DNA from: Roseomonas nitratireducens
GTDB taxonomy: Bacteria > Pseudomonadota > Alphaproteobacteria > Acetobacterales > Acetobacteraceae
Direction: 5' to 3'
DNA length: 64,000 nt
Assembly: GCF_017813355.1 (NCBI RefSeq)
Contig: NZ_JAGIYZ010000016.1
Span: 62,001 to 126,000, forward strand
In this document: positions 12,845 to 59,800 of the stretch, piece after piece
Layout: every line of letters starts with the position of its first letter
Position numbering within the stretch: the first letter of the stretch is position 1
Position numbers and translations under genes: made by a program
The notes under the pieces: generated by a model
What the model was told of the DNA's origin: nothing
The model's input: the letters and a program-made list of their open reading frames with translations, nothing else
Databases searched by the model: none

Positions 12845-13783
12845 TCACCCCTGGCCGGCGGCCGCGGCGACCTCGGCGGCGAAGTCGGACTGCTGCTTCT
12901 CGATGCCCTCGCCGAGCTGGTAGCGGGCGAAGCCGGTGAGCGTGGCACCCGCCTTCTTCACCACTTCCTTCACCCGGCTCTCGCCATCGTGCACCCAGAC
13001 CTGCTCGAGGAGGACGACCTCCTCGTAGTACTTGCGGATGCGCCCCTCGACCATCTTCTGGATGACGGCGTCGGGCTTGCCGGAGGCCTTGGCCTGCTCG
13101 GTCAGCACCGCCTTCTCGCGCTCCAGCGCCGCGGGCTCGACGAAGGACACGTCGAGCGCCTCGGGCCGCGCGGCGGCGACATGCATGCCGATCTGCCGGC
13201 CGAGCGTCTCCATGACCGCCGCCTCGGAAGCGCCTTCGAGCGCCACCAGCACGCCGATCTTGCCCAGGCCCGGCTTCACGGCGGAGTGGACGTAGGTCGC
13301 GACCGCGCCCTCGTTCACATGCAGCAGCCGCGCGCGGCGGATCGACATGTTCTCGCCGATCGTCGCGATCAGGTGCGTCAGTTGCTCGGCCACCGTGCGG
13401 TGGGCGGAACCGCCCTCCACCAGGTCGACCGAACCGGGCCAGCGGGCGTTCTTCAGCGCCTCGACATCCTCGCCCACGGTCAGGGCCAGCTCGGCCACCG
13501 TCGCGACGAAGTTCTGGAACAGCTCGTTGCGGGCGACGAAGTCGGTCTCGGCATTGACCTCGACCATCGCAGCGCGCCGCGGGGCGGAGGCGACGCCGAT
13601 CAGGCCCTCGGCGGCGACGCGGCCGGACTTCTTGGCCGCGGCCGACAGGCCCTTCTTGCGCAGCCAGTCGATCGCGGCCTCCATGTCGCCGTTCGCTTCG
13701 ACAAGCGCCTTCTTGCAGTCCATCATGCCCGCGCCGGTCTTCTCGCGCAGGTCGCGGACCATCGAGGCGGTGATCTCGGCCAT
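12845..13783 (-). CDS. tsf: Elongation factor Ts
   Basis: 312 residues. It is the nucleotide exchange factor for EF-Tu. The N-terminal UBA-like domain starts [17 protein letters not shown] and continues [17 protein letters not shown]. The conserved [13 protein letters not shown] motif at about residues 77-89 contacts EF-Tu. Length is normal for alphaproteobacteria. It follows rpsB by 69 bases and is probably in the same operon. Confidence 0.97.
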
Positions 13784-13852
13784 CGGAATGCTCCGTGGTT
13801 GCCAGTTGAAAAGGGGGATCGCCGGGGCCGCACGGCCCCGGCGGAGCGGGTG

Positions 13853-42223: not shown

Positions 42224-42934
42224 ATGACCATCCCCCGCCGCCCGCTGCTCCTCGCCGCCCTTGCCGCGCCCTTTCTTTCGCGGCAGGCCCGCGCCGCCAC
42301 GACTGCCATCGCGCTCCGCCCCGGCGCGCCGCGCACGCGCATCGCGACGCGCACCCTGCGGGGCGAGCGCGGCGAGGCCTTCGCCATCGCCTTCGGGGCG
42401 CAGGGCGAGGTCCGCCTGCCCACCTGGTACGGCGATGGCCGCGTGCTGCGCGCCCTGCCGCTCGCGGGGCGGGAGGTGCTGCTCGCCGAATTCCAGGGCA
42501 ATCGCGGGACCGGCGTCGCGCAGCGGCTGGTCGCGGCGATCGGCTGGGACGATGCGGCGGGACTGCGCATCCTCGGCATCGAGACGCTGTCCTTCCGCGA
42601 CGCCCAGACCAGCGCAGCGTCCCGCCGCATGACCGGCACGCTGGAGGCGACGGCCGCCCGCGACGCGCTGCTGCTGCGGCACGAGACGGTGCTGCGCCGG
42701 GGCCGCGGGCCGGACCTGCGGGAAACCTGGACGACGCGCCTCGCTTGGTCCGGCGCGGGGCTGCTGGCCGCGCCGGCGACGCCGCCGCGCGCGGGAGGGA
42801 TGCAGCGCCGCGTGGATGCCGCGCGGGCGCGCATCCACGCGCTTCTCGCCGCCGCGCCGGTCACCGATGCGACGGCGCTCGACTACGACGAGGCCGGGCT
42901 CTGGGCCGTGGGCTACGCCGAGCCGGTCAGCTGA
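42224..42934 (+). CDS. Secreted protein of unknown function
   Basis: 236 residues. A signal peptide (PRRPLLLAALAAPFLSRQARA, cleaved about residue 24) precedes a mostly beta-looking domain with AFAIAFGAQGEVRLPTWYGDG and LLAEFQGNRGTGVAQRLVAA. No family recognised and no obvious catalytic motif. No membrane segment after the signal. It converges on the hydantoinase gene, and the two stop codons share an 8-base palindrome. Confidence 0.75.
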   Translation: MTIPRRPLLLAALAAPFLSRQARAATTAIALRPGAPRTRIATRTLRGERGEAFAIAFGAQGEVRLPTWYGDGRVLRALPLAGREVLLAEFQGNRGTGVAQRLVAAIGWDDAAGLRILGIETLSFRDAQTSAASRRMTGTLEATAARDALLLRHETVLRRGRGPDLRETWTTRLAWSGAGLLAAPATPPRAGGMQRRVDAARARIHALLAAAPVTDATALDYDEAGLWAVGYAEPVS

Positions 42935-44417
42935 AGGCGCGGGACGGCGCCGGGTCGAAGCCGTCCGGGGTGATGCCGCGCGGGCGGATCATCTCGTAGG
43001 GCGCGCGCGGCAGGAAGCGGCCGGTGCCGGGTTCGGCCTGCACCTTGCCGTCCTTCATCACCACCTCGCCGCGGCGGATGGTCGCGACCGGCCAGCCGGT
43101 GACCTCCATGCCTTCGTAGGGCGTGTAGTCGATCGCGTGCTGCATCAGCGCGTTGGTGATCGTGACCTTCTTCTTCGGATCCCACAGCGCGAGGTCCGCG
43201 TCGCTGCCCACCGCGATCATGCCCTTGCGGGGCGCGAGCCCCATCAGCCGCGCGGGATTGGTGCAGGTCAGGCGCACGAATTCGTCCAGCGTGATGCGGC
43301 CCTTGGACACGCCCTCGCTGAAGATGATCGGCAGCCGCGCGGCGAAGCCCGGGATGCCGTTCGGGATGTCGCGGAACACCGCATCCGACCCGTTCTGCCG
43401 CTTGCCGCGATCCCCCTCGAAGGAAAACGCGCAATGGTCGGAGGAGATGACGTCGAGCGTGCCGCGGCGGATCATCTCCCACACCCGGGCATGTTCCTCC
43501 TTCGTGCGCGGCGCCGGGCTGCACATGAACTTCGCGCCCTCGAAGCCGGGGCGATCCATGTCGGCGGCGGTGAGTGCGACGTATTGCGGGCAGGTCTCCC
43601 CCCACACCTTCACGCCGCGCGCCTGGGCGCGGGCGATCTCCTCGGCCGCTTCCGCGCAGGAAACGTGGAAGACCTGGATCGGCTGGTCCACCAGCTCGGC
43701 GAGCGCGATGGCGCGGTGCGTCGCCTCGCGCTCGACGACCGGCGGGCGCGCCCAGGCGTGGTATTTCGGCGCGGTCATGCCGTGCTTCAGCAGTTCATGC
43801 GTGCGCCAGTTGATCGCCTCGTAGTTCTCGCAATGCACGGTGACGAGGCAGCCCAGTTCCCGCGCCTTGGTCAGCACGCGCAGGTACTGCGCGTCCGAAA
43901 GGTGCAGCGGCTCATAGGTCAGGAACACCTTCAGGCTGCGCACGCCCTCCGCGACCACGCGGGGCACCTCCTGGTCCATCACCGCGTCGGTCGGGTCGGA
44001 GATGATCTGGTGGAAGGAATGGTCGAGCATCCCGCGCGCCGCCCGCGCCCGGTAGTCGACGTAGCGGTCCCAGACGCCGAAGCCCTTCCATTGCGGGATG
44101 AAGCAGACGACCGAGGTCGTCCCCCCCGCGAAGGCGGCCGCCGAGGCGGTGGCGAAGGTCTCCTCGTTCACCGTCACGGGCGGTTCGGCCGCGCCGGTGC
44201 TGGCGTATCCGCCGCGGGAAGGTTCCTCGATATGGCAATGGCTGTCGACGCCTCCGGGCAGCACGAGCAGCCCGTCCGCCTCCACCACGCGGGCGGCGTC
44301 CGCGATGCGCTCGGCCAGGGCCACGATGCGCCCGTCCTTGACGCCGATGTCGCAGCGCACCGTGCCGAAGCCCGTCGCCACCTGCCCGCCCCGCACCGCC
44401 AGGTCGAATTCCGCCAT
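42927..44417 (-). CDS. Dihydropyrimidinase/hydantoinase-family amidohydrolase
   Basis: 496 residues. The binuclear metal site is intact: HCH at residues 60-62, the carboxylated Lys (Lys163) in SLKVFLTYEP, His residues in VTVHCENYEA and VFHVSCAEAAEE, and Asp in ISSDHCAFS. It opens cyclic amides such as dihydropyrimidines or 5-substituted hydantoins. The start at 44417 reads MAEFDLAVRGG. It lies 58 bases downstream of the P450 gene on the same strand. Allantoinase or phenylhydantoinase activities cannot be excluded. Confidence 0.88.
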   Translation of the reverse strand: MAEFDLAVRGGQVATGFGTVRCDIGVKDGRIVALAERIADAARVVEADGLLVLPGGVDSHCHIEEPSRGGYASTGAAEPPVTVNEETFATASAAAFAGGTTSVVCFIPQWKGFGVWDRYVDYRARAARGMLDHSFHQIISDPTDAVMDQEVPRVVAEGVRSLKVFLTYEPLHLSDAQYLRVLTKARELGCLVTVHCENYEAINWRTHELLKHGMTAPKYHAWARPPVVEREATHRAIALAELVDQPIQVFHVSCAEAAEEIARAQARGVKVWGETCPQYVALTAADMDRPGFEGAKFMCSPAPRTKEEHARVWEMIRRGTLDVISSDHCAFSFEGDRGKRQNGSDAVFRDIPNGIPGFAARLPIIFSEGVSKGRITLDEFVRLTCTNPARLMGLAPRKGMIAVGSDADLALWDPKKKVTITNALMQHAIDYTPYEGMEVTGWPVATIRRGEVVMKDGKVQAEPGTGRFLPRAPYEMIRPRGITPDGFDPAPSRAFS

Positions 44418-44475: not shown

Positions 44476-45807
44476 TCAGCGCGGCGTGACGACGAGGTGC
44501 ATCCCCCCGCGCGGGCGCAGCGCGAGCCGGCAATTGGGCCGCGGCGTGAAGCCGGGGGCCAGCGCGAAGCGGAAGCGCTGGAACAGGGTGGTGACGAAGG
44601 TCCGCACCTCCGCCATGCCGAAGGCGGCCCCGGCGCAGATGCGCGGCCCGATGCCGAAGGGCAGGTAGGCGTAGCGCGGCCGCGGCCGCGCCTGGGGGCC
44701 GAGGAAACGCTCGGGGCGGAAATGGTGCGGCGCCTCCCACAATTCCTCGTGCCGGTGCAGCAGCCAGGGCACGGCCAGCACCACATCGCCCTTGCGGACA
44801 CGCCAGCGCCGGATGCGATCCGGCTGCGTCGCCTGGCGGGCGAGCACGGCGACGGGCGGATAGAGCCGCATCGCCTCCTGGATGAAGGCGCGGGTGTAGT
44901 CGTGGGACTTCGAGGCCCGCACCTCGATCGCGATGCGGTCGGCCGAAGGCGGGTGCAGCGCGGCGAGCATCGTCGTCCAGGTCAGCGTGATCGCGGCACC
45001 CTCGCTGCCGGCCAGCAGCAGCATCACCACCTCGTCCAGCAGCCTTTCGCCGGCGAGGATGGGCGAGCCGTCCTCCCGCCGCGCGGCGCGCAGGGAAGCG
45101 AGCAGCGGCGTCCCGCCCTCCGGCCCCGCGGCGGCGAGCAGGGCGGCGACGCGCGCGCGGATCTCGGCGGCGAGGCGATTGGCGCGCGCGCGGGTCAGCC
45201 AGCCCGCCACGTCCGGCAGGCCGATCAGGCCGAACAGGTCCACCACCTCGGCCGCGTCCTGGTAGGCGGTGAAGGTGCGCGCGATCTCGGCCGCTTCCTC
45301 CCGCGCCACGCCGGGGCCGAAGACGGCGAGCAGCATGACCCGCGTGATCGCCGCGGCATAGGCGACGGCGACGTCGACCGGCCCCTCGGCGCGGGCGAAG
45401 TCCTCGGCCAGTTCCGCGGCTGCCTGCTCGAAGCAGGGCTCGAAGCCCGAGACGACGGATGGGTGCAGCGGCGGGACGATGGCGCCGCGCTTTTCCGCCC
45501 AGTCCTCTCCGGATGCGATGAAGGCGCTGCCGCCGATCACCGGGCGCAGCGCATCCTCGAGGAAGCGGCTTTTGCGCTGGTAGGTCTCGTGACGGGTGAC
45601 GAAGACCGCCCGCACCACGTCGGGGGTATTGGCGACGAGGATCAGCCGCCCGGGCAGGCGGGCGGAGAAGACCTGCCGGCGATAGGCGTCCTCGGGGAAG
45701 ATCGAGAGGACGTCCCGCCGCGCCTGCAGCAGGCCGGCGAAGGCCGAGAGCGCGCGCCCGACCGGCGGCGGCATCGGCGGGACGAAGTCGGCGGCGCTGG
45801 CATCCAT
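44476..45807 (-). CDS. Cytochrome P450
   Basis: 443 residues. The heme-thiolate motif is FGIGPRICAG, with Cys the iron ligand. The ExxR motif is in FIQEAMRLYPP. The PERF-like segment is FRPERFLGP. In the I helix the usual acid-Thr pair reads AGSEGAAITL, so the alcohol residue is shifted or absent, which can alter oxygen activation. No redox-partner gene is adjacent. A perfect palindrome lies immediately upstream of the start and probably regulates it. Confidence 0.92.
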   Translation of the reverse strand: MDASAADFVPPMPPPVGRALSAFAGLLQARRDVLSIFPEDAYRRQVFSARLPGRLILVANTPDVVRAVFVTRHETYQRKSRFLEDALRPVIGGSAFIASGEDWAEKRGAIVPPLHPSVVSGFEPCFEQAAAELAEDFARAEGPVDVAVAYAAAITRVMLLAVFGPGVAREEAAEIARTFTAYQDAAEVVDLFGLIGLPDVAGWLTRARANRLAAEIRARVAALLAAAGPEGGTPLLASLRAARREDGSPILAGERLLDEVVMLLLAGSEGAAITLTWTTMLAALHPPSADRIAIEVRASKSHDYTRAFIQEAMRLYPPVAVLARQATQPDRIRRWRVRKGDVVLAVPWLLHRHEELWEAPHHFRPERFLGPQARPRPRYAYLPFGIGPRICAGAAFGMAEVRTFVTTLFQRFRFALAPGFTPRPNCRLALRPRGGMHLVVTPR

Positions 45808-45844: not shown

Positions 45845-46534
45845 TCACCGCCGGTCGGCGGATTCCGTCCCGTAGCCGCGGCCGTAGCGGCGTTCCAGGC
45901 GCCGCTGCACCACGTCCCACAGCGTCGTCATCAGCAGGTAGTAGAGCGCGGCGACGACGAACAGCTCCAGCACCAGGAAGCGTTCCTGGATCAGCAGCTG
46001 GGTCCGGCGCAGCAATTCGTCGACGCTGATGACCGAGGCGATGGACGTCGTCTTGAGCAGCCCGTTCACCGAATTGCCCAGCGGCGGGATCATGACGCGG
46101 AAGGCCTGCGGCCAGGTCACCAGGCGGAACACCTGGCCGCGATGCAGCCCGAGCGCGAGCGCGGCTTCCCGCTGCCCCTTCTGCACCGAAAGGATGCCCG
46201 AGCGCACGATCTCGGACAGGTAGGCGCCCTCGTTCAGCGAGATGCCGATCAGGGCCGCTTCCCAAACGTCGAAGCGCAGCCCGATCAGCGGCAGGCCGGT
46301 GTAGATGATCAGCAGCTGCACCAGCAGCGGCGTGCCCCGGAAGAACCAGCAGTAGAAGGCCGCGAAGGCGGACAGCGCGCGGTGTTCCGACAGCCGCGCC
46401 AGCGCGATCATGATGCCGATGACAAGGCCGAAGACGAGCGAGCCCGCCGTCAGCCCCACCGAGATCAGCGCGCCTTCTAACAGGTAGGCGTTGAAGAGCG
46501 AATCGAAGAAGCCGTCCCAGCGCCATACCTGCAT
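45845..46534 (-). CDS. Amino-acid-type ABC transporter permease (HisM/GlnP family)
   Basis: 229 residues with about five membrane helices and the permease-ATPase contact loop NEGAYLSEIVRSGILSVQKG followed by GQREAALALGL. PLGNSVNGLLKTTSIASVI is typical of polar-amino-acid permeases. It follows the binding-protein gene by 26 bases. No ATPase gene is next to it, so it probably uses one encoded elsewhere. Confidence 0.9.
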   Translation of the reverse strand: MQVWRWDGFFDSLFNAYLLEGALISVGLTAGSLVFGLVIGIMIALARLSEHRALSAFAAFYCWFFRGTPLLVQLLIIYTGLPLIGLRFDVWEAALIGISLNEGAYLSEIVRSGILSVQKGQREAALALGLHRGQVFRLVTWPQAFRVMIPPLGNSVNGLLKTTSIASVISVDELLRRTQLLIQERFLVLELFVVAALYYLLMTTLWDVVQRRLERRYGRGYGTESADRR

Positions 46535-46560: not shown

Positions 46561-47388
46561 TCAGCTCGGCCCCACCACCTCGAAGGGCCCGTCATAGGCG
46601 GTGACGCCGAAGCGGCCGAGCAGAGCATCGAAGGACCCGTCCGCCTTCATCGCGGTCAGCGCGCGGGCCACCGCCTCGGCCAGCGGCCTGGAGCGGAAGC
46701 CGAAATTGATCGGCGTGCCGTACAGGCCGGAGATGGCGCGGGTGAATTCGCCGCGGTCGTCATATTCCTTGCCCGTGCTGTCGATGGAGATCGCGGCGTC
46801 GAGCTGCCCCGCGCGCAGCGCCTGGAACGATACGGCGAAGTTGTCGAAGGCGCGGATCGTCAGCGGCGCGAGGTTGCGCGCGCGCAGGTCGTTCGACATG
46901 TCCGTGGTGCGGCGGAACTCGAAGCCGCCCTGCTCCACGCCCACGCGCAGCCCGGCGAGGTCCTCGATCCGGCGGATGTTGCGCGGGTTGCCGCGCGGGA
47001 CGGACACGCTGATCGCCTGCTGCTCGTAGCGCACCAGCCACATCAGGCGCTGGCGTTCCTCGGTGTAGAACATGCCGGTGTTGATCATGTCCCACCGCCG
47101 CGCGGCGAGGCCGGGGATCATGGCGGCGAATTCCACGCGCACATGCTCGACCTGGAGGCAGAGCCGGCGCGCGATCTCGGCGCCGAGTTCCACGCGCATG
47201 CCGCGCAGCACGCCCTGCCCGTCCACGAACTGCATCGGCGGCAGCGTCGGGTTGGTCGACAGCGTCAGCGTGCCGGCCTTGACCAGCTCGCTGTTGGGCA
47301 CGGCCTGGGTGCAGGCGGGCGCCTGCGCCAGCGCCGGGCTCGCCAGCAGCGAGGTGCCGGCGGCGAGGAAAAGGCGACGGTCCATCAT
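46561..47388 (-). CDS. Amino-acid-type ABC transporter substrate-binding protein (SBP family 3)
   Basis: 275 residues. A signal peptide (MMDRRLFLAAGTSLLASPALA) precedes the family 3 domain with LSTNPTLPPMQFVDGQGVLRG and IARRLCLQVEHVRV, then LAGLRVGVEQGG in the second lobe. The ligand is probably an amino acid or small amine. It lies between a DapA-family gene (13-base gap) and the permease, so the ligand may feed the DapA-family/dehydrogenase pathway. Confidence 0.9.
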   Translation of the reverse strand: MMDRRLFLAAGTSLLASPALAQAPACTQAVPNSELVKAGTLTLSTNPTLPPMQFVDGQGVLRGMRVELGAEIARRLCLQVEHVRVEFAAMIPGLAARRWDMINTGMFYTEERQRLMWLVRYEQQAISVSVPRGNPRNIRRIEDLAGLRVGVEQGGFEFRRTTDMSNDLRARNLAPLTIRAFDNFAVSFQALRAGQLDAAISIDSTGKEYDDRGEFTRAISGLYGTPINFGFRSRPLAEAVARALTAMKADGSFDALLGRFGVTAYDGPFEVVGPS

Positions 47389-47401: not shown

Positions 47402-48313
47402 TCATTCCGCCGCCTGGGCGGCGACGCTCATCAGCCCGATGCCCTGCAAGACCTGCGCCAGCGCGGGCATGTCGGCCGAAGGCAGCGGCAGGCGCGGCGG
47501 CCGCGGCGGACCCATGTCCATGCCCATCAGCCGGAACGCCGCCTTGGTGCCCGACACGTAGCGCGGCCCGCCCACCCAGGGCAGCAGCGGCGCCAGTTTC
47601 CGATAGAGCGCGAGCGACTTGTCGCGGTTCGCCTCGAAGGCGGCGGCGTCGAACATCTCGCTCGACAGGCGGGGGGCGACGTTGCTGCACACCGCGACCC
47701 AGCCGATCGCGCCCAGCCAGGCGCTCTCGTAGCCGAGCACGCCGGCGAAGACCTCCATCCGCTCGCCGCACAGCGCGATGATGTCGCGCACGCGCGTCGC
47801 CTCCAGCGTGCTTTCCTTGACGTAGCGGCAATTCGGGATGCGGCTGATCTCGGCCAGCATCGCCGGCGTCATGTCGACATTCGCCGTGGCCGGGTTGTTG
47901 TAGACCATGATCGGGATGCCGATCGCGCGCGCCACCGTGTCGTAGTGGTGCACCAGTTCCGCCAGCGTCGGCACCGAATAGAAGGGCGGGATGATCATCA
48001 CCCCATCCGCGCCCTGGGCCTCGGCTTCCTTGGATGTCGCGACGACCTCCCGCGTATCCTCCGCCCCCGTGCCGACGACGACGGGCACGCGGCCTTTCGC
48101 CGCGCGGATCACCGTCTCGACGATCGCCGCGCGCTCCTCGCGCGAGACGGACAGGAACTCGCCGGTGGACCCGAGCGGGATCAGCCCGCGCACGCCCTCC
48201 CGCACCTGGTATTCGACGAGCCGTGCGAGCGCCGCGTGGTCCACCGCCGATCCGTCGGGCGTGAAGGGCGTGATCAGCACCGTGTAGGTGCCGCGGAAGG
48301 GCTCTCGGGACAT
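47402..48313 (-). CDS. DapA-family aldolase/deaminase, possibly hydroxyproline-pathway type
   Basis: 303 residues of the N-acetylneuraminate lyase/DHDPS superfamily. The carboxylate-binding GSTGEF (49-53), catalytic Tyr138 in MVYNNP and Schiff-base Lys166 in RYVKEST are all present. True DapA is unlikely given the setting. A member of this family, pyrroline-4-hydroxy-2-carboxylate deaminase (LhpC/HypD type), works after a ferredoxin-FAD D-hydroxyproline dehydrogenase, and a fused homologue of that enzyme is encoded divergently. That link is inference; other aldolases of keto acids are possible. Confidence 0.85.
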   Translation of the reverse strand: MSREPFRGTYTVLITPFTPDGSAVDHAALARLVEYQVREGVRGLIPLGSTGEFLSVSREERAAIVETVIRAAKGRVPVVVGTGAEDTREVVATSKEAEAQGADGVMIIPPFYSVPTLAELVHHYDTVARAIGIPIMVYNNPATANVDMTPAMLAEISRIPNCRYVKESTLEATRVRDIIALCGERMEVFAGVLGYESAWLGAIGWVAVCSNVAPRLSSEMFDAAAFEANRDKSLALYRKLAPLLPWVGGPRYVSGTKAAFRLMGMDMGPPRPPRLPLPSADMPALAQVLQGIGLMSVAAQAAE

Positions 48314-48386: not shown

Positions 48387-51284
48387 ATGCGACTCACCTC
48401 CCCCGCCATCACGCGCGCCTCGGCACCCATCCGCTTCACCTTCGAAGGGCGGGAGGTCGAGGCGCTGCAAGGCGAGTCCATCGCCGCCGCGCTCTCGGCC
48501 GCCGGCATCCTCGCCTTCCGCGAGACAGCGAAGGGCGCGCCGCGCGGCCTGTGGTGCGGCATGGGCGCCTGCTTCGACTGCGTCGTCACGGTGGATGGCC
48601 GCGCCGGCCAGCGCGCCTGCCTGGTGAAGGCGGAAGCCGGCATGCGCGTGGACGGCGCCCCGCCGGCGGACCCCGCGCCGCTCGCCGCGGCAGCCGAGGC
48701 ATCGCGCGAGGAAGCCTGCGACATCCTGGTCGTCGGCGCGGGTCCCGCGGGGCTTTCCGCCGCCATCGCCGCCGCGCGGGCGGGCGCGCACGTGGTCGTG
48801 CTGGACGAACGCGGGGAGGCCGGCGGCCAGTATTTCAAGCCGCTGGCGAAAAGCCACGCGCACGCGGCCCCCGACGCGCAGTTCCGCCAGGGCGCCGCGC
48901 TGCTCGCCGAAGCCCGCGCCGCAGGCGTCACGATCCACCATGGCGCCACCGTCTGGGGCGGCTTCGCGCCGGAGGAGATCGCGGCCCTCGTCGACGGCGC
49001 GGCCACCACCTTCCGCCCACGGCGCCTCATCCTCGCCCCCGGCGCGCATGAACGGCCCGTTCCGGTGCCCGGCTGGACGCTGCCGGGCGTGATGACGACG
49101 GGCGCGATGCAGACGCTCGCCCGCGCGCAGCGCGTCAGCCCGGCCGATCGCGTGGTGATCGCGGGATCCGGCCCGTTGAACCTGCAACTCGCCTACGAAT
49201 TGCTCGCCGGCGGCGTGCGGGTCGCCGCGGTGGTCGAAGCCGCGCCGAAGCCGGGCCTGGCCGCCTGGCGCGACCTGCTGGCGCTGGCGAGATCCTCCCC
49301 GGATCTCGCCTGGGACGGGCTGCGCTACATCGCCACGCTGCAGCGCGCCGGGGTGCCGGTGATCTGGGGCGGCACCATCCTCGCCTGCGAGGGCACGGAC
49401 CGCTTCGAAGCGCTGCGCATCGCGACACCATCGGGCGAGCGCCGCATCGAGGCCGGCGCCGCCGCGCTCAACATGGGCTTCCAGCCGGAAACCGGGCTCG
49501 CCCGCGCCCTCGGCTGCGCGCAGCGCTTCGCGACGGACGGACCCGGCGCGGAGATCGGGCGGCTCGAGACCGAGACGGATGAAGAAGGCCGCAGCAGCGT
49601 CGCGGGCGTCTTCGCCGTGGGCGACGGCGCGGCGATCGGCGGGTCGCGCATCGCGCTGGCGCGCGGGCGGCTCGCCGGCCTCGCCGCGGCGCGGGAGATC
49701 GGCCTCGCCGCGCCGGAGGATTCTGGCGCGCGGCGGGACCTCGACCGCGCCGTCGCCTTCCAGCGCGCGCTGTGGCGCATCTTCGCCGCCCCCGCCTTCG
49801 ACGTCGCGGCCATCGCGGATGCCACCATCCTCTGCCGCTGCGAGGAAGTGACGGCGGGCGACCTCCGCGCCGCCATGGCGGGCGGGGCGCGTACGCTCGC
49901 CGCGCTCAAGAAGGAAACGCGCGCGGGGATGGGCCGCTGCCAGGGGCGCATGTGCGCGGCCGCGGTCGCGCGGCTCGCCGGCGCGCCGGCGGCCGAGGCC
50001 GCCTTCGCCGCGCCGCGCGCGCCGATCCGCCCCATCCCCGCCGCCGCGCTGATGCGGGAGGTGCCGGAAGCGCAGATCGACGCCCCCGTCATCGAGGCCC
50101 CCGCGCCGATCGCCTGGCGCAGCCCCAGCGTGCCGCTCGCACCCGCCGACCGGGCCTGCGAGGTGCTGGTGATCGGCGGCGGCGTGCTCGGCCTGTCCAC
50201 CGCGCTGTATCTGGCGCGCGAGGGCGTCGACGTGCTGGTGGCCGACCGCTCCGAACCCGGCCTCGCGGCCAGCACCGCCAATGCCGGCAGCCTGCATGTG
50301 CAGCTGCTGCCCTATGATTTCGGCGACAAGGCGGAAGCGCTCGGCACCGCGGGCCCCGCCGCCGCGACGCTGCCGCTCGGGCCGCGCTCCATCGATCTGT
50401 GGAAGGAGATCGCGCGCGACGCGGGCGAGGCCTGCGGCATCCGCACGGAAGGCGGGCTGATGCTCGCCGAGACCGAGGCCGAGTTCGAATGGCTGCGCGG
50501 CAAGACCGCGGTCGAGCGCGGCGCGGGCATCGAGACGCATGTGCTCGGCGCGAACGAGTTGCGCGACGTCGCCCCCTATCTCGCGCCGCGCTTCATGGGC
50601 GCGGCTTTCTGCCCGGCGGAAGGGCAGATCGACCCGCTGCGCGGCACGGCGGCGCTGCTGGCGCTGGCCAGGCGGGCGGGCGCGCGGGTCGCGGGCGGCG
50701 TCGCCATCACCGGCATCTCGCGCGAGGGCGCCGGCTTCGCGGTCGCGACCGAAGGCGCGACGATCCGCGCCGGGCGCGTCGTGGTCGCGGCGGGGCCGTG
50801 GTCGGGGCAGATCGCGGCGCTGGCGGGGGTGCGGCTGCCGGTCGGCGGGCTGGTGCAGCAGGTGATCGCGACCGAGGCGACGGGGCCGCTCATCCCGCAT
50901 CTGGTCGCCCATGCCGGGCGGCATCTCTCGCTCAAGCAGGGGCCGCACGGGCACCTGCTGATCGGCGGCGCCTGGCCCGGCACGCACGACCCGGCAACGG
51001 GCGCCACGCGCAACCGGCGCACCAGCATCGAGGGGAACCTCTGGGTCGCGGGCCATGTCGTGCCCGCCGTGGCCGGGCTTTCGGTGCTGCGCGCCTGGAC
51101 GGGGATGAACGTGCATATCGACCGCGCGCCGATCCTGGGCGAGGCGCCCGGCTGCCCGGGGCTCTTCGCCGCCGTCACCTCCTCCGGCTACACGCTCGGC
51201 CCCGTCTGCGGGCGGATGACGGCGGATGCCGTGCTGGGGCGGGAGAGGATGCCCGCGGACTTCGCCATCGCGCGCTTCGGTTGA
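48387..51284 (+). CDS. Single-chain fusion resembling HcnA-HcnB-HcnC (opine/hydroxyproline/glycine dehydrogenase type)
   Basis: About 965 residues. Order: a 2Fe-2S ferredoxin domain (Cys57, 62, 65, 78); an FAD/NAD-linked oxidoreductase with GAGPAG at 117-122; a BFD-like region with Cys483, Cys485, Cys518 and Cys523 (ILCRCEEV and GRCQGRMC); then a second FAD domain of D-amino-acid/glycine-oxidase type (GGG at 597-599, C-terminal SSGYTLGPVCG). HcnA, HcnB and HcnC, OoxA/B and D-hydroxyproline dehydrogenase subunits are normally separate. Starts at 48351 (ATG) or 48387; I used 48387 (MRLTSPAITR). Divergent from the DapA-family gene. Membrane association is expected for the family; no anchor is seen. 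Confidence 0.9.
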   Translation: MRLTSPAITRASAPIRFTFEGREVEALQGESIAAALSAAGILAFRETAKGAPRGLWCGMGACFDCVVTVDGRAGQRACLVKAEAGMRVDGAPPADPAPLAAAAEASREEACDILVVGAGPAGLSAAIAAARAGAHVVVLDERGEAGGQYFKPLAKSHAHAAPDAQFRQGAALLAEARAAGVTIHHGATVWGGFAPEEIAALVDGAATTFRPRRLILAPGAHERPVPVPGWTLPGVMTTGAMQTLARAQRVSPADRVVIAGSGPLNLQLAYELLAGGVRVAAVVEAAPKPGLAAWRDLLALARSSPDLAWDGLRYIATLQRAGVPVIWGGTILACEGTDRFEALRIATPSGERRIEAGAAALNMGFQPETGLARALGCAQRFATDGPGAEIGRLETETDEEGRSSVAGVFAVGDGAAIGGSRIALARGRLAGLAAAREIGLAAPEDSGARRDLDRAVAFQRALWRIFAAPAFDVAAIADATILCRCEEVTAGDLRAAMAGGARTLAALKKETRAGMGRCQGRMCAAAVARLAGAPAAEAAFAAPRAPIRPIPAAALMREVPEAQIDAPVIEAPAPIAWRSPSVPLAPADRACEVLVIGGGVLGLSTALYLAREGVDVLVADRSEPGLAASTANAGSLHVQLLPYDFGDKAEALGTAGPAAATLPLGPRSIDLWKEIARDAGEACGIRTEGGLMLAETEAEFEWLRGKTAVERGAGIETHVLGANELRDVAPYLAPRFMGAAFCPAEGQIDPLRGTAALLALARRAGARVAGGVAITGISREGAGFAVATEGATIRAGRVVVAAGPWSGQIAALAGVRLPVGGLVQQVIATEATGPLIPHLVAHAGRHLSLKQGPHGHLLIGGAWPGTHDPATGATRNRRTSIEGNLWVAGHVVPAVAGLSVLRAWTGMNVHIDRAPILGEAPGCPGLFAAVTSSGYTLGPVCGRMTADAVLGRERMPADFAIARFG

Positions 51285-51349: not shown

Positions 51350-51907
51350 ATGCGTGCCCCGCTCCTTGCCCTGCTCGCCGGGCTGTCCGCCCTGCCCGCC
51401 GCCGCCCAGGCCCCGGCCGCGCCGGACCCGATGGCCGACAGCATCGTGCGCAACCTGACCCGCGGCATCCGCATCCCGGGGCGGGAGGCCGACGCGGTCA
51501 CCGCCCCGATCACGCCGAGCGGCCCCGTCCAGGCCGCGACAACGGCGCCGCCCGAGATCCCCGCCGTGTCGCTGATGGTCACCTTCGCCACCGGATCGGC
51601 GACGCTGACGCCGCAGGCCGACGCCGTCGTCGCGGCGCTGGCCCGCGCGCTGGCCGCGCCGGAACTGGCGCGCTCGCGCATCCGCATCGAAGGGCACACC
51701 GACACGGTCGGCGACGGGGCGATGAACCTGCGCCTGTCCGAACGGCGGGCGGAGGCGGTGCGCACGAGCCTCATCACGCGGCACGGAATCGCGCCGGGCC
51801 GCCTCGAAACGCTCGGGCTGGGCGAGACACAACTCCTGGTAGCAACAAGCGATAATGTTCCGGAAACCCGCAACCGGCGCGTGCAGATCCTGAACATCGG
51901 CGAGTAG
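51350..51907 (+). CDS. OmpA-family peptidoglycan-binding protein
   Basis: 185 residues. A signal peptide (MRAPLLALLAGLSALPAAAQ) and a linker rich in Pro/Ala lead to a C-terminal OmpA domain with IEGHTDTVGDGAMNLRLSER, the peptidoglycan-contact Asp/Arg region. No barrel or lipobox, so it is a soluble periplasmic wall-binding protein. GGAGGT lies 8 bases before the ATG. It precedes the two-partner secretion genes in the same direction. Confidence 0.9.
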   Translation: MRAPLLALLAGLSALPAAAQAPAAPDPMADSIVRNLTRGIRIPGREADAVTAPITPSGPVQAATTAPPEIPAVSLMVTFATGSATLTPQADAVVAALARALAAPELARSRIRIEGHTDTVGDGAMNLRLSERRAEAVRTSLITRHGIAPGRLETLGLGETQLLVATSDNVPETRNRRVQILNIGE

Positions 51908-52029: not shown

Positions 52030-53805
52030 GTGGCGCAGTTCCGCTCTCATTCCGGTATGCGATGGGCCGTCGCCGGCCTGATCCTCACGCTGCCGGCGCT
52101 CGCCGCGGCGCAGGCGCCGGGCGGCATCCCGCGCCCGCCCCCGCCGCCGTCCCGCATCATCGAGCGCGTCGCGCCGCCCGACGCCCCGGTGCTGTCGCCG
52201 CGCGCCGAGCCGCCCGCCGAGGCCGCGCGCCGCGGGCCGGGCGAAGGCCGCATGGTCGCCATCTCGACCGCCACGGTGCAGGGCAACACGGCGCTGCGGG
52301 AACGGCGCATCCGCGCGGTCGTCTCCGGCCTCGAAGGCCAGACCGTGGCGCTGTCGCGGATCGAGGAGACGCGGCTCGCCCTGCTCGGCGCCTATCGGCG
52401 GGCGGGCTACCCCTTCGTCTCGATCGCCGCGACCCTCGTCCCCGGCCCGGGCGGGCGGAACGAGGCGCGCTTCACCGTCACCGAGGGCTATGTCGCCGAT
52501 GTGCGGCTCGATGGCGACATCGGGCCGGCCGGCACGCAGGTGCTGCGCTTCCTCGAACGCGTGAAGGACGTCCGGCCGATCTCGACCGCGGCGGTCGAGC
52601 GCGCGCTGCTGCTCGCCTCCGACATCCCCGGCGTGCGCGTGCGCGGCGTGCTGCAGCCGATCCAGGGCGAACCCGGCGCGCTGCGGCTGGTGGCGCAGAT
52701 CAGCCGCTCGGCGCTGTCGGGCTACTTCAACCTCGACAACCGCGGCTACCGGCTGACCGGGCCCTGGCAGGGGCTGCTGGTCGCCGGGGTGAACTCGATG
52801 ACCGAGTACGGCGAGCGGACCGAGGTCTCGATCTTCGGCGCCGAGCAGTCGACGCAATGGTTCGTCCAGGGCGGCGTCGAGACCTTCATCGGCGGCTCCG
52901 GCCTGCGCGTGCGCGTCTATGCCGGCATGGGCAACACCACGCCGTCGGGCCAGTTGGAAGCCATCGGCTATGAGGGCGAGACGCGCATCGCGGGCGTCGT
53001 CGCGACCTACCCGATCATCCGGTCCCGCCCCGCCAACCTTTGGGCGATCGCGCAGTTCGACATCTTCGACAGCGACGTCTTCACCGGCGTGGGCATCTTC
53101 GGCGGCGGCGGGCGGACCATCGCCGGGCGCGACCGCATCCGCACCGGGCGCGGCGGCTTCGACATGCAGGCGCTCGACGAATTCGCGCCCTTCCTGCCGG
53201 CGGCGACGAACCAGGGTTCCGTGCGCATCCACCAGGGCCTGTCGGTGTGGGACGCGACGGCGAGCAACGACACGCAGGCGACACGCATCGGCAGCGAGTT
53301 CGACTTCACCAAGATGACGGCGGAATACCAGCGGATCCAGCCGCTCTTCGCCCCCTTCGACGGGGCGATGGTCAACGTTCAGGCGTATGTGTCGGGGCAA
53401 TACTCATCATCGGTACTCCCACCCGCCGAGAAATACTACCTGGGCGGGTCCCGGCTCGGCCGCGGCTACTATTCGGGGCAGGTGACCGGCGATTGGGGAT
53501 ACGGTTACGCAGTGGAATTGCAGCTCGATCTGGCCTACGAAATACCGGCCGAGCCCGCGCTCGGGAACAATCGGGGCTCGACGCAGCTGTACGTCTTCCG
53601 CGACATGGGCTGGGCTTACCAGAACCTCGACACCGATGCCGATCGCCGGCTGTCCTCCTGGGGCGGCGGCGTGCGGACGGTGGTCGCCGACACCGTGCAA
53701 CTGGACCTTGAACTGGCGCGCCGCCTGACGACGCGCCCCGAGGGCCTGGCCGCCGATCCGCTCCGCGCAACGCAGCTCATTTTCCGTACGCTTGTGAGGT
53801 TCTGA
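52030..53805 (+). CDS. Two-partner secretion outer-membrane transporter (TpsB, ShlB/FhaC family)
   Basis: 591 residues from GTG, 582 from an ATG at 52057 that starts directly on the signal peptide (MRWAVAGLILTLPALAAA). A Pro-rich linker (about 30-65) leads to POTRA domains (ISTATVQGNTALRERRI near 78, a second to about 235) and a 16-strand barrel ending LIFRTLVRF. The VRIHQGLSVWDA and YYLGGSRLGRGYYSGQ stretches are typical of the barrel. It exports the TpsA encoded next, 3 bases downstream. The POTRA domains recognise the TPS domain of the partner. Confidence 0.93.
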   Translation: MAQFRSHSGMRWAVAGLILTLPALAAAQAPGGIPRPPPPPSRIIERVAPPDAPVLSPRAEPPAEAARRGPGEGRMVAISTATVQGNTALRERRIRAVVSGLEGQTVALSRIEETRLALLGAYRRAGYPFVSIAATLVPGPGGRNEARFTVTEGYVADVRLDGDIGPAGTQVLRFLERVKDVRPISTAAVERALLLASDIPGVRVRGVLQPIQGEPGALRLVAQISRSALSGYFNLDNRGYRLTGPWQGLLVAGVNSMTEYGERTEVSIFGAEQSTQWFVQGGVETFIGGSGLRVRVYAGMGNTTPSGQLEAIGYEGETRIAGVVATYPIIRSRPANLWAIAQFDIFDSDVFTGVGIFGGGGRTIAGRDRIRTGRGGFDMQALDEFAPFLPAATNQGSVRIHQGLSVWDATASNDTQATRIGSEFDFTKMTAEYQRIQPLFAPFDGAMVNVQAYVSGQYSSSVLPPAEKYYLGGSRLGRGYYSGQVTGDWGYGYAVELQLDLAYEIPAEPALGNNRGSTQLYVFRDMGWAYQNLDTDADRRLSSWGGGVRTVVADTVQLDLELARRLTTRPEGLAADPLRATQLIFRTLVRF

Positions 53806-53808
53806 GAC

Positions 53809-56800
53809 ATGGCCCGTCGCGCGCCTCGGGGCCAGGCTCGCGCCGGCCGTACCCCCGCCCCGGCGCCGGCGCGCGCATCGATCCGTCGCAAGCCCGCGCG
53901 CCTGTGGCTGCTGGGCACCACGGCGCTGCTGCCGGTCGCGGCGGGGCCCGCCCTCGCCCAGCCCGCGCCGGGCCAGGGTCCGACCGGCGGGCAGGTCGTC
54001 GCCGGCCAGGCCGGCATCGCGCGCACGCCCGGCCGCACCACCGTCACCCAGTCGACCAACCGCGCCGCGATCGACTGGCAGCAGTTCAACGTCGGCAGCC
54101 AGCACACGGTGCAGTTCGTCCAGCCCTCCCAGGGGTCCTGGACGCTGAACCGCGTCGTCGGGCCTGATCCGTCGGTCATCGCCGGGCGCGTGCAGGCCAA
54201 TGGCGGCGTGGCCATCGTCAACCAGTCGGGCATGGTCTTCGCGCAGGGCGCGCAGGTGGATGTCGGCAGCCTGATCGCCTCGGCCGCCGGCATCACCAAC
54301 GAGAACTTCATGGCCGGGCGCATGGCGTTCGACCAGGCGCCGCGCCGCGGGGCGCGCGTCGAGAACCACGGCAGCATCACCGTCGCCGATCGCGGCCTCG
54401 CCGCGCTGGTCGGGCCCAACGTCTCCAATTCAGGCGTGATCCGCGCGCGGCTCGGGCGCGTGGCGCTCGGCGCGGCGGAGACCTTCGTCCTCGACCTCGC
54501 CGGCGACGGCCTCATCGGCATCGACGTCACCCAGGCGGTGCGCGAGGCGCCGCAGGGTGGGGCCGCGCTCGTCACCAATTCCGGCACCATCGAGGCGCCG
54601 GGCGGCTCCGTGCTGCTGACCGCGCACGCGGCCTCCGACCTGGTCGAGGACCTGGTCCGCCAGACCGGCCGCATCTCCGCCCCCACGGCGGATGGCCGCG
54701 CGGGCCAGGTGGTGCTGCGCGCCGAGGGCGGGTCCGTCCGCGTCGAGGGTACGATCGACGCCACGGGTGGGGCCGGCGCGCGCGGCGGCGCGGTCGCGAT
54801 CCAGGCCACCGAGGGCGTCACCGTCGCCGCGGGTGCCACGGTCGATGCCTCGGGCGCGGCGGGCGGCGGGCGCGTGCTGGTCGGCACGGCGGGCCGCGGC
54901 CGGCAGCAGCCCATGGCCCGGCGCACGACGGTGGAAGCGGGTGCGACCATCCGCGCCGACGCCACCACAGCCGGCAATGGCGGGGAGATCGTCGTCAACA
55001 GCGCCGATCGCACCGAGATGCGCGGCACGCTGACCGCGCGCGGCGGCGCCACGTCCGGCAATGGCGGCTTCATCGAGGTGTCCGGCCAGGGCGCCTTCGT
55101 GCTGCAGGGGATCGTCGACCTGACGGCGGGCAACGGCGCGCTCGGCGACTTCCTGCTCGACCCGCAGAACATCATCATCTCCTCGAGCGGCACGCCGACC
55201 GTGCCCTTCGGCACGGTGACGGATCCCTCGGGCACCATCGGCGCGGGGGGCACGTTCAGCGCCGCGACGGGCAACGCGAACGACTGGGTCCGCATCGACG
55301 CCGCCGCGCTCGCGGGGTTCGCCGCCGGCAACGTCACGCTCGAAGCCAATCGCCAGATCATCGTCGACAGCACCGTCAACCGCACCAATGCGGGCAATGT
55401 GACGCTGCGCGCGGGCGTCGGCACCGGCGTGACGGACGGCAACATCGTCCAGCGCGCGGGCGCGGATTTCTCGGTCAACGGCACGCTGACGCTCGAGACG
55501 AACCAGGGCGCGATCAGCCTCGCCGCCAATGTGCGGGCGACCGCCGTCGTGCTCTCGGCCAGCGGCGACATCGCCCAGACCGGCGGCAACATCCAGCACC
55601 GCACCAGCGCGACGACGCAGTTGCCGCTCTCCGCCATCTCCTCCGCGGGCAACGTCACGCTGGCGCAGTCCGGCAACGGCAATTTCGCCCTCGGCGCGAG
55701 CGGCGCGACCGCCGGCACCTTCACCGTCTCGGCCAATACGCTGCGCGTCGGCAGCAGCCTGACCGCGAACGCGACGAGCCTGACCGCCGCCACCGGCACG
55801 CTGACGCTGGCGGGCGACATCCGTGCGACCAGCCTCGCCCTGTCCGGCGCCACGGGCGTCACGCAAAGCGGCGGCACCATCGCGCACCGTGATTCGACGC
55901 CGGCCACGCCCGTCGAACTGCCGCTGACGGCGAACACGACGAGCGGCCCCGTCACCCTCGACCAGACGGGCAACGGCCCCGTCGAGCTCCGCGCCAGCAC
56001 CGCGGCCGGCGACTTCACCCTGACGGCGGAAGCGATACGCACCACCGGGGCGCTGACCGCGAATGTCGCGACGCTGACGGCGGAGACCGGCGCGATCGAA
56101 CTGGGCGCCAATGTGCGCGCGACCGACCTCAACCTCGTCGCGCAGACCGGCATCAGCCAGAGCGCCGGGACCATTGCCCATCGCTCCGGCGCGAACACGC
56201 CGATCGACCTCGCCGCCAGCCTCGCCGCCGCGGGCAACATCACGCTCGGCCAGGCCAATGGCGAGATCAACCTGCTCACCGGCGGCACCTTCGCGGGCAA
56301 CTTCACCCTCGCCGCGACGGGCGACACGACGCTCGCCGCGGGCCAGACGCTCTCCGTCGCCGGGGAAGCGCGGATCACGCTGACCGGCACCGCGGACCTC
56401 GCGCTCAACGGCACGCTGCAGGCCAACAGCGCCGTCCTCCAGGCGCAGGGCGACATCACGCAGGCGACGACGGCGGTGCTCGCGCCGCTCTCGGCCGCGC
56501 CCGGCGCCGCGCTTGACCTGACGGTCGCGGTCACCGGCAACAACAACAGCGTCGACCTGCTCGGGGCGAACGGCGTCATCCGGCTTGTCGGCGGCTCGAC
56601 CCAGGGCGAGGCCTTCGCGCTGCGCGGCACCTCGCTCAGCGTCGCCGGCCCGCTCAGCACGGCCGATGGCGCGACGCGCGGCAACGTCACGCTCGTCGCG
56701 AGCGGCACGACCGGATCGATCGCGCTCGGTGGCGCCGTCACCGCCGCCGGCGCGACGCTGCGGGCGAATGGCGCGGTCACGCAGTCGGCGGCGCTCGACC

Positions 56801-59800
56801 TAGGCGGCACGCTGACCATCCGCGGCCAGGATGGCACCCCGACCAGCGGCGCCGGCTCCGTCGCGCTCACCCTCGCCAACCAGGTGACGACGCTCGACGC
56901 GCGGGCCACCGGGGCGCTCGCCTTCACCTCCGGCGCTGCGGCGCTGAGCATCACCCAGGCGCGCGGCAACGGCGTCGCGATCACGGGCACGGGTGTCGCC
57001 GTCGCCGTCGGCGGCGGCGCGAGCGGCGTCGTCGGCACGGGCACGGGCGCCATCAGCGTCGTGGCGAACAGCCTGACCTTGTCCGGCGGCATCGCACAGC
57101 TCGGCGGCGGCAGCATCTCGCTGCGCACGGACGCGATCACCACGGGCGGCATCATCTCCGCGCCCTCGGCCACGGTGGAGATCGGCCCGCGCACGGCGGG
57201 CCGCGGCGTGCTGGTCGGCGGCGCCACCGATGCCACCCGCCTGCGCATCACCGAGACGGCGCTGAACGCCGTCACGGCCGGCACCGTCCGGCTCGGCAGC
57301 ACCACGATCGGCGCCTCCACCGTCACGGGCGGCGCGGTGGAGATCGCGGGCGCGGTCTCCCTGCCCGCCACCACCACCTTCGAGGTCGCGGCCGGCGGCG
57401 ACATCACCCTCGGCGCCGCGGTCGAGGCGGGGCGCGTGCGGCTCGGCGCGACCGGCAACATCGCGCTCGGCACCTTCGACGTGACGTCGGACGGCGCTTC
57501 GGGCGGGATCGAGCTGCGCGCCGGCGGCACCATCACGCAGGGGACGGGCAGCGAGATCATCGCCAGCGGCGCGACGCGCGAACTGGTCGCCCAGGCGGGC
57601 GCGGGGAGCCTCTCGCTCACCGGCACCGGGTCCTTCCGCGTCGCCGATGGCGGGGCCGAGCCGCGCGGCCTGTTGGCGCCAGGGGACATCACGGTCAATC
57701 TCGGCACGAGCGGCGCGCTGACCATCGCCGGCGCGGTGCAGGCCGGCGGCACGGCCAACCTGACCGCGCGCAGCATCGCGCTCCAGGCCGCGCTCACCGC
57801 GCCGACGGCGGTGAACCTGGCCGCCTCGGGCGGCGGTGCGGCCAGCACCATCACCCAGACCGCGTCGGGCACCATTTCCACCGCGCTGCTCACGGCCAAT
57901 GCCACCGGCGCGGTCAGCCTTTCCGCCGCGCCGAACCAGGTCGCCAACCTCGGCACCTTCTCCTTCAACGACGCCTTCCGCTTCCGCACCAACGCGGCGG
58001 TCACGGTCTCGGGCGCTATCGCGCCGACGACGGTCGGCAGCAACGCCGACATCACGCTGATCGCGAGCAGCGTCGACGTGAACGCGGCACTGGCGGCGGG
58101 CACCGGCACGGTCACGCTGCAGGCGACCGGCGGCAACGTCTCCCAGACCGCGACGGGGACCATCACGGCCGGGCGGCTCGAAGCCTCGGCCAGCGGGTCC
58201 GTGCTGCTGGACACCGCGCCCAACGCGGTCGGGACCTTCGGCGCCGGCGGCGCGGGCGGCACCTTCGCGCTGCGCAACGGCCGGCCGCTGACGATCGACA
58301 GCGCGCTGACGCAGGGCGCGGGCGGCGGCATCCTGCGGCTGACGACCGATGGCACGCTGACGGTCGCCAATGGCGGCTCGATCGCCTTCTCCGACATCAC
58401 GCTCGCGGCGGCGAGCGGCATGACGATCTCGGGCAATATCGGCCAGGCGGGCGCGACGGTGCGGCTCGGCGCGGGCGGGGCGATCACCCAGACGGCCACG
58501 GGCGGGATCACGGCGGGCACGCTCGGGATCTACGCGCCCGGCGACATCGCGCTCACCGCCGGGACCAACGCGGCCGGCGCCATCGGCGCCTTCACCCCCG
58601 GCGCCTTCGGCTATCGCGGCAGCGGCACGGTCCAGACGACGACGGTCGCCGACGTGATCCGGCCGTTCTTCAATCCGCTCCTGCCCGGGGGCTTCATCTT
58701 CGGTTCCGAGACCGTCTCGGGCATTCGCGCGGCCTCGGTCGACATCACGGCCGACAGCCTGCGCGTGCGCAACGCGACCGGCGGCAGCGCGCTCGGTGAA
58801 GGCGTCGCGGCCACGGCGACGACGGGGCTGGTGCGCCTGCGCCTGGACGGCCTCGCCATCGATGCCGACAGCGCCATCACGGCGGGCGCCAACCCGACTT
58901 ATGGCGGCAGCATCGACCTCGCGACCCGCACCGCGGGCCGGAACATCGTGATCGGCGCCGACCAGGCCGGCACGCTCGCCCTCGGGCCGGGCGTGCTCGG
59001 GCGCCTGTATGGCGAGACGGTGACGATCGGCGCGGCGGGCGCGGGTGCGGGCACGCTGACGGTCGCGGGGCCGGCGAGCAGCAACGCGGTCAACGAACTC
59101 GCCCTGCGCGGCGCTTCCATCGGCATCGACGGCGCGCTGTCCATGTTCGGCACGGGGCGCGTCAGCCTGACGGCCGCGACGGGGGACATCACGCAATCCG
59201 CCACGGGCTCCATCTCCGCGCCGAACCTCGTCGCGACCGCCACGCTCGGCGACGTGCGGCTGGATGTCGTGGGTGCGGCGAACAACATCGCGCCCGCGTT
59301 CGTTGGCGGCCTCGCAGTCCCCGGCACCGGCACCGTCTCGGGCAGCGCCGGCGGCGGCGACTTCGCCTTCCGCAACGCGGGCAATGTCAGCGTCGCCGCC
59401 CCGGGCATCACGGCGACGGGCGGCACCGTCACGCTGGTCTCGACCGGCGGCGCGATCAGCCAAGCGGCCGCAGCGCCGATCACGACGGGCACGCTGGTCG
59501 CGAACGCGCTGGGCACGGTCACGCTCGACCTCGGCACCAACGCCGTCGCCACGCTCGGCGCGGGCTCCGCGGGCGGGGCGGGCTTCACCTTCCGCACCAA
59601 CCGCGCGCTGACCGTCGCGGGCGTCTCCTCCTCCTCGGGCGGCATCACGCTCGAAGCGCCCGGCGGGATGACGCTGTCAGGCAACGTCTCGGCCCCGAAC
59701 GGCCGGGTGGTGCTGCGCACGGGCGCGACGTTCGACACGCCGGGCGCGGGCGACATCACCCAGACGGGCGGCATCATCGCCGCGGCGAACCTCTCGGCCT

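Follow-up and report, generated by a model that had tools for sequence, protein, structure and literature searches.

Hydrogen cyanide synthase, HcnABC, is encoded by genes lying in the order hcnA-hcnB-hcnC. According to the available portion of PMC4575208, the known heteromeric members of the Hcn/opine/D-hydroxyproline type consist of separate subunits, and the characterised opine enzyme is a tightly membrane-bound 1:1:1 complex. A relative described there carries two FAD, one FMN and [2Fe-2S] per alpha-beta-gamma unit and acts as a dye-linked dehydrogenase, not an oxidase. The FMN sits between alpha and beta, and an Arg-x-Trp motif is proposed for it. The same portion of PMC4575208 counts one [2Fe-2S] cluster, in gamma, yet marks two Cys motifs.

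The window analysed here is a stretch of 64,000 nucleotides from Roseomonas nitratireducens. Its first-pass annotation had reported HcnA-, HcnB- and HcnC-like modules joined in one chain, and the kinship it proposed with these multi-subunit enzymes is borne out by their description in the available part of PMC4575208. The subunit types are already known; what appears to be new is the single-chain form and its conserved gene cluster.

A single open frame with three modules

The fused frame starts with an ATG at 48387, contains no internal stop and ends with its stop codon at 51284, so that the plus strand, coordinates and length of 965 residues first assigned to it are correct (Table 1). The mechanical open reading frame begins at a GTG (48288) within the divergent gene 47402-48313, while the Met-Arg-Leu start at 48387 is conserved, with R2 and L3 nearly invariant in 39 fused rows; for both reasons 48387 was taken as the start. 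The Pfam domains Fer2_4, Pyr_redox_2, Fer2_BFD and DAO follow one another in this order, every score being above its cut-off, and the frame runs through both joints without a break. The A-B-C order, the iron-sulfur cysteines, both FAD motifs and the DAO identity of the C-terminal module (216 bits) are thus as first described.

Table 1. Features of the fused gene and its neighbours in the window
Feature	Position	Strand	Evidence
Fused gamma-alpha-beta dehydrogenase gene (P0001)	48387..51284	+	open frame, domains, conserved start; 965 aa
Module A (gamma, HcnA-like), Fer2_4, residues 13-89, Cys 57/62/65/78	48423..48653	+	PF13510 85.1 bits
Module B (alpha, HcnB-like), Pyr_redox_2, residues 112-420, GAGPAG at 117	48720..49646	+	PF07992 101.1 bits
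BFD-like [2Fe-2S] domain of alpha part, Fer2_BFD, residues 481-530, Cys 483/485/518/523	49827..49976	+	PF04324 40.7 bits; SO_alpha_A3 30.2 bits
Pro/Ala-rich B-C linker, residues 541-588	50007..50150	+	in frame, less conserved than the modules in five relatives
Module C (beta, HcnC-like, presumed catalytic), DAO, residues 593-947, GGGVLG at 597	50163..51227	+	DAO 216 bits
Putative FMN motif Arg902-Ala-Trp904	51090..51098	+	aligns with R-T-W of 1y56_B; invariant in 39 aligned rows
Divergent DapA/DHDPS-family lyase, 303 aa (P0002)	47402..48313	-	PF00701 206.9 bits
Amino-acid ABC transporter substrate-binding protein	46561..47388	-	SBP_bac_3 87.6 bits
Amino-acid ABC transporter permease	45845..46534	-	BPD_transp_1; TIGR01726 over cut-off
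Cytochrome P450, neighbour only in close relatives	44476..45807	-	PF00067 171 bits
D-hydantoinase/dihydropyrimidinase-type amidohydrolase (start set by eye)	42927..44417	-	TIGR02033 485.8 bits vs cut-off 393.25

The cysteines of module A (C57-x4-C62-x2-C65-x12-C78) follow the superfamily pattern C-x4-C-x2-C-x11-12-C, and those of the BFD-like domain (C483-x-C485-x32-C518-x4-C523) the second alpha motif C-x-C...C-x4-C, the x32 spacing exceeding the x15-20 that the available portion of PMC4575208 gives for the alpha subunit. Both ADP-binding GxGxxG motifs are kept, at residues 117 and 597. The two Cys sets, R902 and W904 form invariant columns in the 39 aligned fused rows. Moreover, a regular expression applied to each module found the Cys, GxGxxG and R-x-W motifs all kept in 61 of 61 complete fused frames, comprising 51 scan loci (from the best 80 of 575 stretches), six plasmid loci, three survey loci and the locus of the window (L001). 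The earlier cofactor account holds for the Fe-S and FAD motifs; it missed FMN, though the Arg-x-Trp motif is kept in the fusion.

Compared with five relatives, the third codon position changes most in each module. The A-B and B-C linkers are in frame and less conserved, and the third-position bias is not always seen in them. Of the NCBIfam models listed for the fusion, the 25 best all stayed below their cut-offs; sarcosine oxidase subunit alpha (TIGR01372, soxA), for instance, scored 140.8 bits against a cut-off of 1164.

The AlphaFold model of the whole chain has a mean pLDDT of 86.2 and a pTM of 0.88, with pLDDT below 50 at residues 58-61, 146-150, 220-226, 232-238 and 645-654, the first Fe-S loop being among them. 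The solved relatives are both chains of archaeal L-proline dehydrogenase (1y56) and of heterotetrameric sarcosine oxidase (2gag/1vrq). Module B matches 1y56_A and 2gag_A by sequence; 1y56_A aligns with the fusion at a TM of 0.76 by target over 572 columns, and the alpha chain of 2gag matches residues 13-566. The structural rows of VIA-align cover residues 584-965 only.

Distribution and origin of the fused form

How often the three modules are fused had been raised by the first-pass annotation as a point for survey. A scan of one genome per species gave 77 loci from the best 80 of 575 confirmed stretches, a selection in which split forms are undersampled. All modules lie in one frame at 51 of the 77, nine are cut by a contig end and 17 are split, including one (L069) with no C gene seen. 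In the bacterial family of the window, 48 of 200 sampled genomes and 31 of 102 genera match at E 1e-100, which rules out a rare oddity for this family. In 40 of these 48 genomes, the own genome among them, a single open frame covers 900 or more aligned residues; the remaining matches are pieces, mostly at contig ends. In the phylum sample, five of 398 genomes match, again with the own genome included; as one of them (G541) has A and B fused and C in the next gene, the full fusion occurs in 4/398. Fused copies are also found on plasmids of Azospirillum, Aureimonas, Rhizobium, Agrobacterium vitis and Variovorax, where the annotated ones are named merely 'FAD-dependent oxidoreductase'. The fusion is common in one bacterial family and scattered outside it.

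Roseicitreum has A and B fused and C in the adjoining gene, the two genes overlapping by 14 bases. With such an overlap a single indel could join or split the genes, and an assembly error or frameshift might in principle have created the long frame of the window. However, this explanation is practically negligible, given the single frame at 51 of 77 scan loci (best 80 of 575 stretches) and nine plasmid or survey loci, together with the third-position bias in all modules against five relatives. Independent genomes carrying the same single frame rule out an assembly artefact; the fusion is a real single-chain protein and not peculiar to one genome.

Module trees were computed with 52 rows for module B and 55 for module C. 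The fused rows and the two-gene AB+C forms group together in both, as 29 rows with support 100/99 for module B and as 30 rows with 96/93 for module C, the latter including a lone Roseicitreum C gene. OoxA/OoxB fall outside this group, as do the two split systems of the window's genome. The AB+C forms are nested inside the fused group or lie close to it. For the 27 fused rows, a single clade is compatible with the module B data (p-AU 0.298), but the support of 56/58 in module C falls short of establishing it; long branches occur, and the tree program flags possible false joins for module C. Owing to this nesting, these values and the warnings, two routes fit the trees: the fused form may have arisen by one fusion with later splitting, or by fusion through an AB intermediate.

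The genome of the window holds two further split systems, one on contig C12 and one at the end of contig C9, and the fused form is therefore probably an additional specificity there. The C12 paralogue (L090 8369-10578 and surroundings) has its own DapA-family gene and an SBP_bac_3 gene at 12972-13796. Some Roseomonas relatives (L011, L012 and L016, at about 0.4-3.6 kb) carry a split A/B/C system on the contig of the fused gene, roughly 6-7 kb away from it. Another locus (L103, G158:C7) shows two AB-type matches about 5 kb apart by a DapA-family gene, with a TAG inside one match. In Roseicitreum, a lone C-type gene (L089 1884-4006) lies by its own DapA-family gene and groups next to the fused C modules.

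No description of the fusion was found among the matches listed in the open-licence literature (titles and abstract openings). In the available portions of PMC4575208 and PMC4113996, the words 'fused' and 'fusion' are absent or unrelated to this fusion, and PMC8097209 holds nothing on this dehydrogenase family.

Gene neighbourhood and the partner lyase

The neighbourhood is the best functional clue for the fusion, and it was left unused in the earlier functional reading. Neighbours were counted at 71 loci with a whole or partial fusion, 66 of which have at least 1.2 kb upstream; 47 loci have at least 4 kb on each side and 42 have flanks of 6.5 kb. A DapA homologue (at least 50% identity) is present at 59 of the 66 loci, within 1.2 kb at 55. 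Among the 47 loci, DapA occurs at 43, the substrate-binding protein and the permease at 42 each, hydantoinase at 18, an ABC ATPase at nine, P450 at seven and DUF3830 at four; with 6.5 kb flanks, hydantoinase is found at 22 and DUF3830 at six of 42. On the Azospirillum, Aureimonas and A. vitis plasmids the set adds GntR genes, an ABC ATPase, hydA and DUF3830, the plasmid neighbours being annotated as 'dapA' or 'dihydrodipicolinate synthase family protein', and as 'hydA'. In the genome of the window, DUF3830 lies on another contig, and the literature search found no paper on it. The nearest solved chains to the substrate-binding protein are the resurrected ancestor AncQR and general amino-acid binders.

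Seven of the 66 loci have no DapA partner, so that a two-step pathway is not universal. Three of them (L005, L030 and L046) retain hydantoinase, three (L035, L057 and L056) have an S58 or M20 peptidase near the fusion, and L038 is the seventh. The DapA homologues of the six genomes other than that of L038 reach 32-35% identity at most.

Directly downstream of the fusion, a small OmpA-family gene (51350-51907, plus strand) has homologues in 7 of the 60 loci L005-L064. It is followed on the same strand by a two-partner secretion pair. The first gene (52030-53805) encodes a ShlB/FhaC-type transporter; the second (53809-63999) is still open where the window ends and encodes a giant exoprotein that carries a TPS secretion domain and is 3397 aa long or more. 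Long antisense open frames over this pair are probably high-GC shadows.

The partner lyase was aligned with its homologues of at least 50% identity (n=63, P0002 included). The Tyr and Lys which we take to be catalytic are kept, Tyr138 in 63/63 and Lys166 in 62/63 with one gap. The Arg to which we ascribe a functional role in DHDPS, two residues past the Pro of Y-N-x-P in the synthases 4i7u and 6xgs, is absent (0/63), its position being occupied by Thr in 59, Ala in three and Val in one. Since this Arg is replaced, the partner is unlikely to be a lysine-biosynthesis enzyme. A housekeeping lysine DapA is likewise disfavoured by its TIGR00674 score of 195 bits, below the cut-off of 206.15.

A lyase of this kind is also in keeping with a fused D-hydroxyproline dehydrogenase acting in a hydroxyproline pathway. 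As the available portion of PMC4113996 describes it, that pathway has transport genes and combines a dehydrogenase of the DAO family with a deaminase of the DHDPS family, and the heteromeric D-HypDH is a relative in the corresponding portion of PMC4575208; the DapA partner without the DHDPS Arg fits as well. This role is nevertheless rather unlikely. The own genome (G000, 99.5% complete) has no proline-racemase-family (PF05544) gene, which weakens the D-hydroxyproline candidate of the first-pass annotation and a hydroxyproline operon with it; 3 of 14 control genomes match this family. Within 9 kb of the fusion, the incomplete gene table for four annotated plasmids lists neither an aldehyde dehydrogenase gene nor one of the proline-racemase family, and the hydantoinase neighbour does not fit. 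On two of the four plasmid records, proline-racemase-family genes do occur at other sites, where no FAD dehydrogenase is listed in the surrounding 22-25 kb.

The amino-acid ABC partners and the homologues on Agrobacterium and Rhizobium plasmids also recall opine catabolism. A fused opine dehydrogenase for octopine- or nopaline-like N-carboxyalkyl amino acids would share its cofactor architecture with the enzymes described in the available part of PMC4575208. Such a function is improbable, as OoxA and OoxB (one annotated Oox pair used) fall outside the fused group in both module trees. In addition, arginase, ornithine cyclodeaminase and RidA, which are present by OoxAB, are not listed by the fusion on the four annotated plasmids. 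It is very improbable indeed that the chain is HcnABC in one piece, producing HCN from glycine. Its module order is that of hcnA-hcnB-hcnC, and HCN synthase is grouped with this dehydrogenase family in the available portion of PMC4575208, but the transporter, lyase and hydantoinase neighbours would point to catabolism, HcnABC being compared here by description.

Proposed function and comparison with known systems

With a probability of roughly 0.7, the fusion is a single-chain gamma-alpha-beta flavin/Fe-S amino-acid dehydrogenase linked to respiration, whose substrate is imported and whose product passes to the DapA-family lyase where one is present. The best reading of its specificity is a small D-amino, imino or N-substituted amino acid, oxidised by a dye- or respiratory-chain-linked dehydrogenase. 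From the motifs, relatives and neighbours we infer its cofactor loading, electron route, acceptor, substrate class and reaction order. The substrate would be taken up by the adjoining amino-acid ABC proteins; roughly every second locus has a D-hydantoinase-type hydrolase, which may first open a cyclic precursor. The DAO module C (beta), using its own FAD, would then oxidise the amine next to the carboxylate of a D-amino acid, a cyclic imino acid or an N-substituted amino acid. Electrons would pass from this FAD to FMN at the B/C interface and through Fe-S (Fer2_4, perhaps also BFD) to an acceptor that is presumably respiratory rather than O2 or NAD(P)+. By analogy with the related enzymes, electron flow through the Fe-S centres, as first proposed, can soundly be expected. 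The resulting imine or 2-oxo acid may be handed to the divergently encoded DapA-family Schiff-base lyase, where present. The further suggestion that fusion fixes the stoichiometry brings nothing new, because the characterised opine enzyme is already 1:1:1 in the available portion of PMC4575208 and no new stoichiometry is created.

More tentatively, these genes might form an undescribed catabolic route common to Acetobacteraceae, Azospirillum, Rhizobiaceae and Variovorax, a possibility to which we give somewhat less than even odds. In it, a hydantoinase-type enzyme would open a cyclic ureide or imide and so release a D-amino or imino acid; the fusion would oxidise this acid and deliver the electrons to the respiratory chain, and its product would be cleaved by a DapA-family lyase with a new specificity. 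The conserved neighbourhood is a concrete candidate catabolic pathway, and the interest of the locus lies mainly in pathway discovery and in a one-chain model enzyme. A natural single-chain version of the three modules may be easier to express and solve, and the FAD-FMN-FeS electron route could be studied in one polypeptide.

Among the known systems, OdhABC and OoxAB/NoxAB share with the fusion a Fer2 gamma, a Pyr_redox alpha with a second Cys motif, a DAO beta, the GxGxxG pair and R-x-W; unlike it, they have separate subunits and the gene order beta-gamma-alpha (available portion of PMC4575208). The Oox pair used here belongs to another group in both module trees, and its neighbour genes differ from those of the fusion. 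The heteromeric D-HypDH, by its description in the available part of PMC4575208, has the same three modules but in separate subunits. The D-hydroxyproline pathway has a DHDPS-family partner, like the fusion (available portion of PMC4113996), whereas its epimerase family is absent from the fusion's genome. Sarcosine oxidase (2gag/1vrq) has an alpha chain matching the fusion and a beta chain of the DAO type, on separate chains. HcnABC, by description, resembles the fusion in module types and gene order, but consists of three proteins and is cyanogenic. Archaeal PDH1 (1y56) matches the fusion with both chains and shares R-x-W, having two chains against one; its gamma part is already joined to alpha, according to the available portion of PMC4575208. 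The fusion is a one-chain variant of the type to which opine dehydrogenase, D-hydroxyproline dehydrogenase, HCN synthase and archaeal L-proline dehydrogenase belong.
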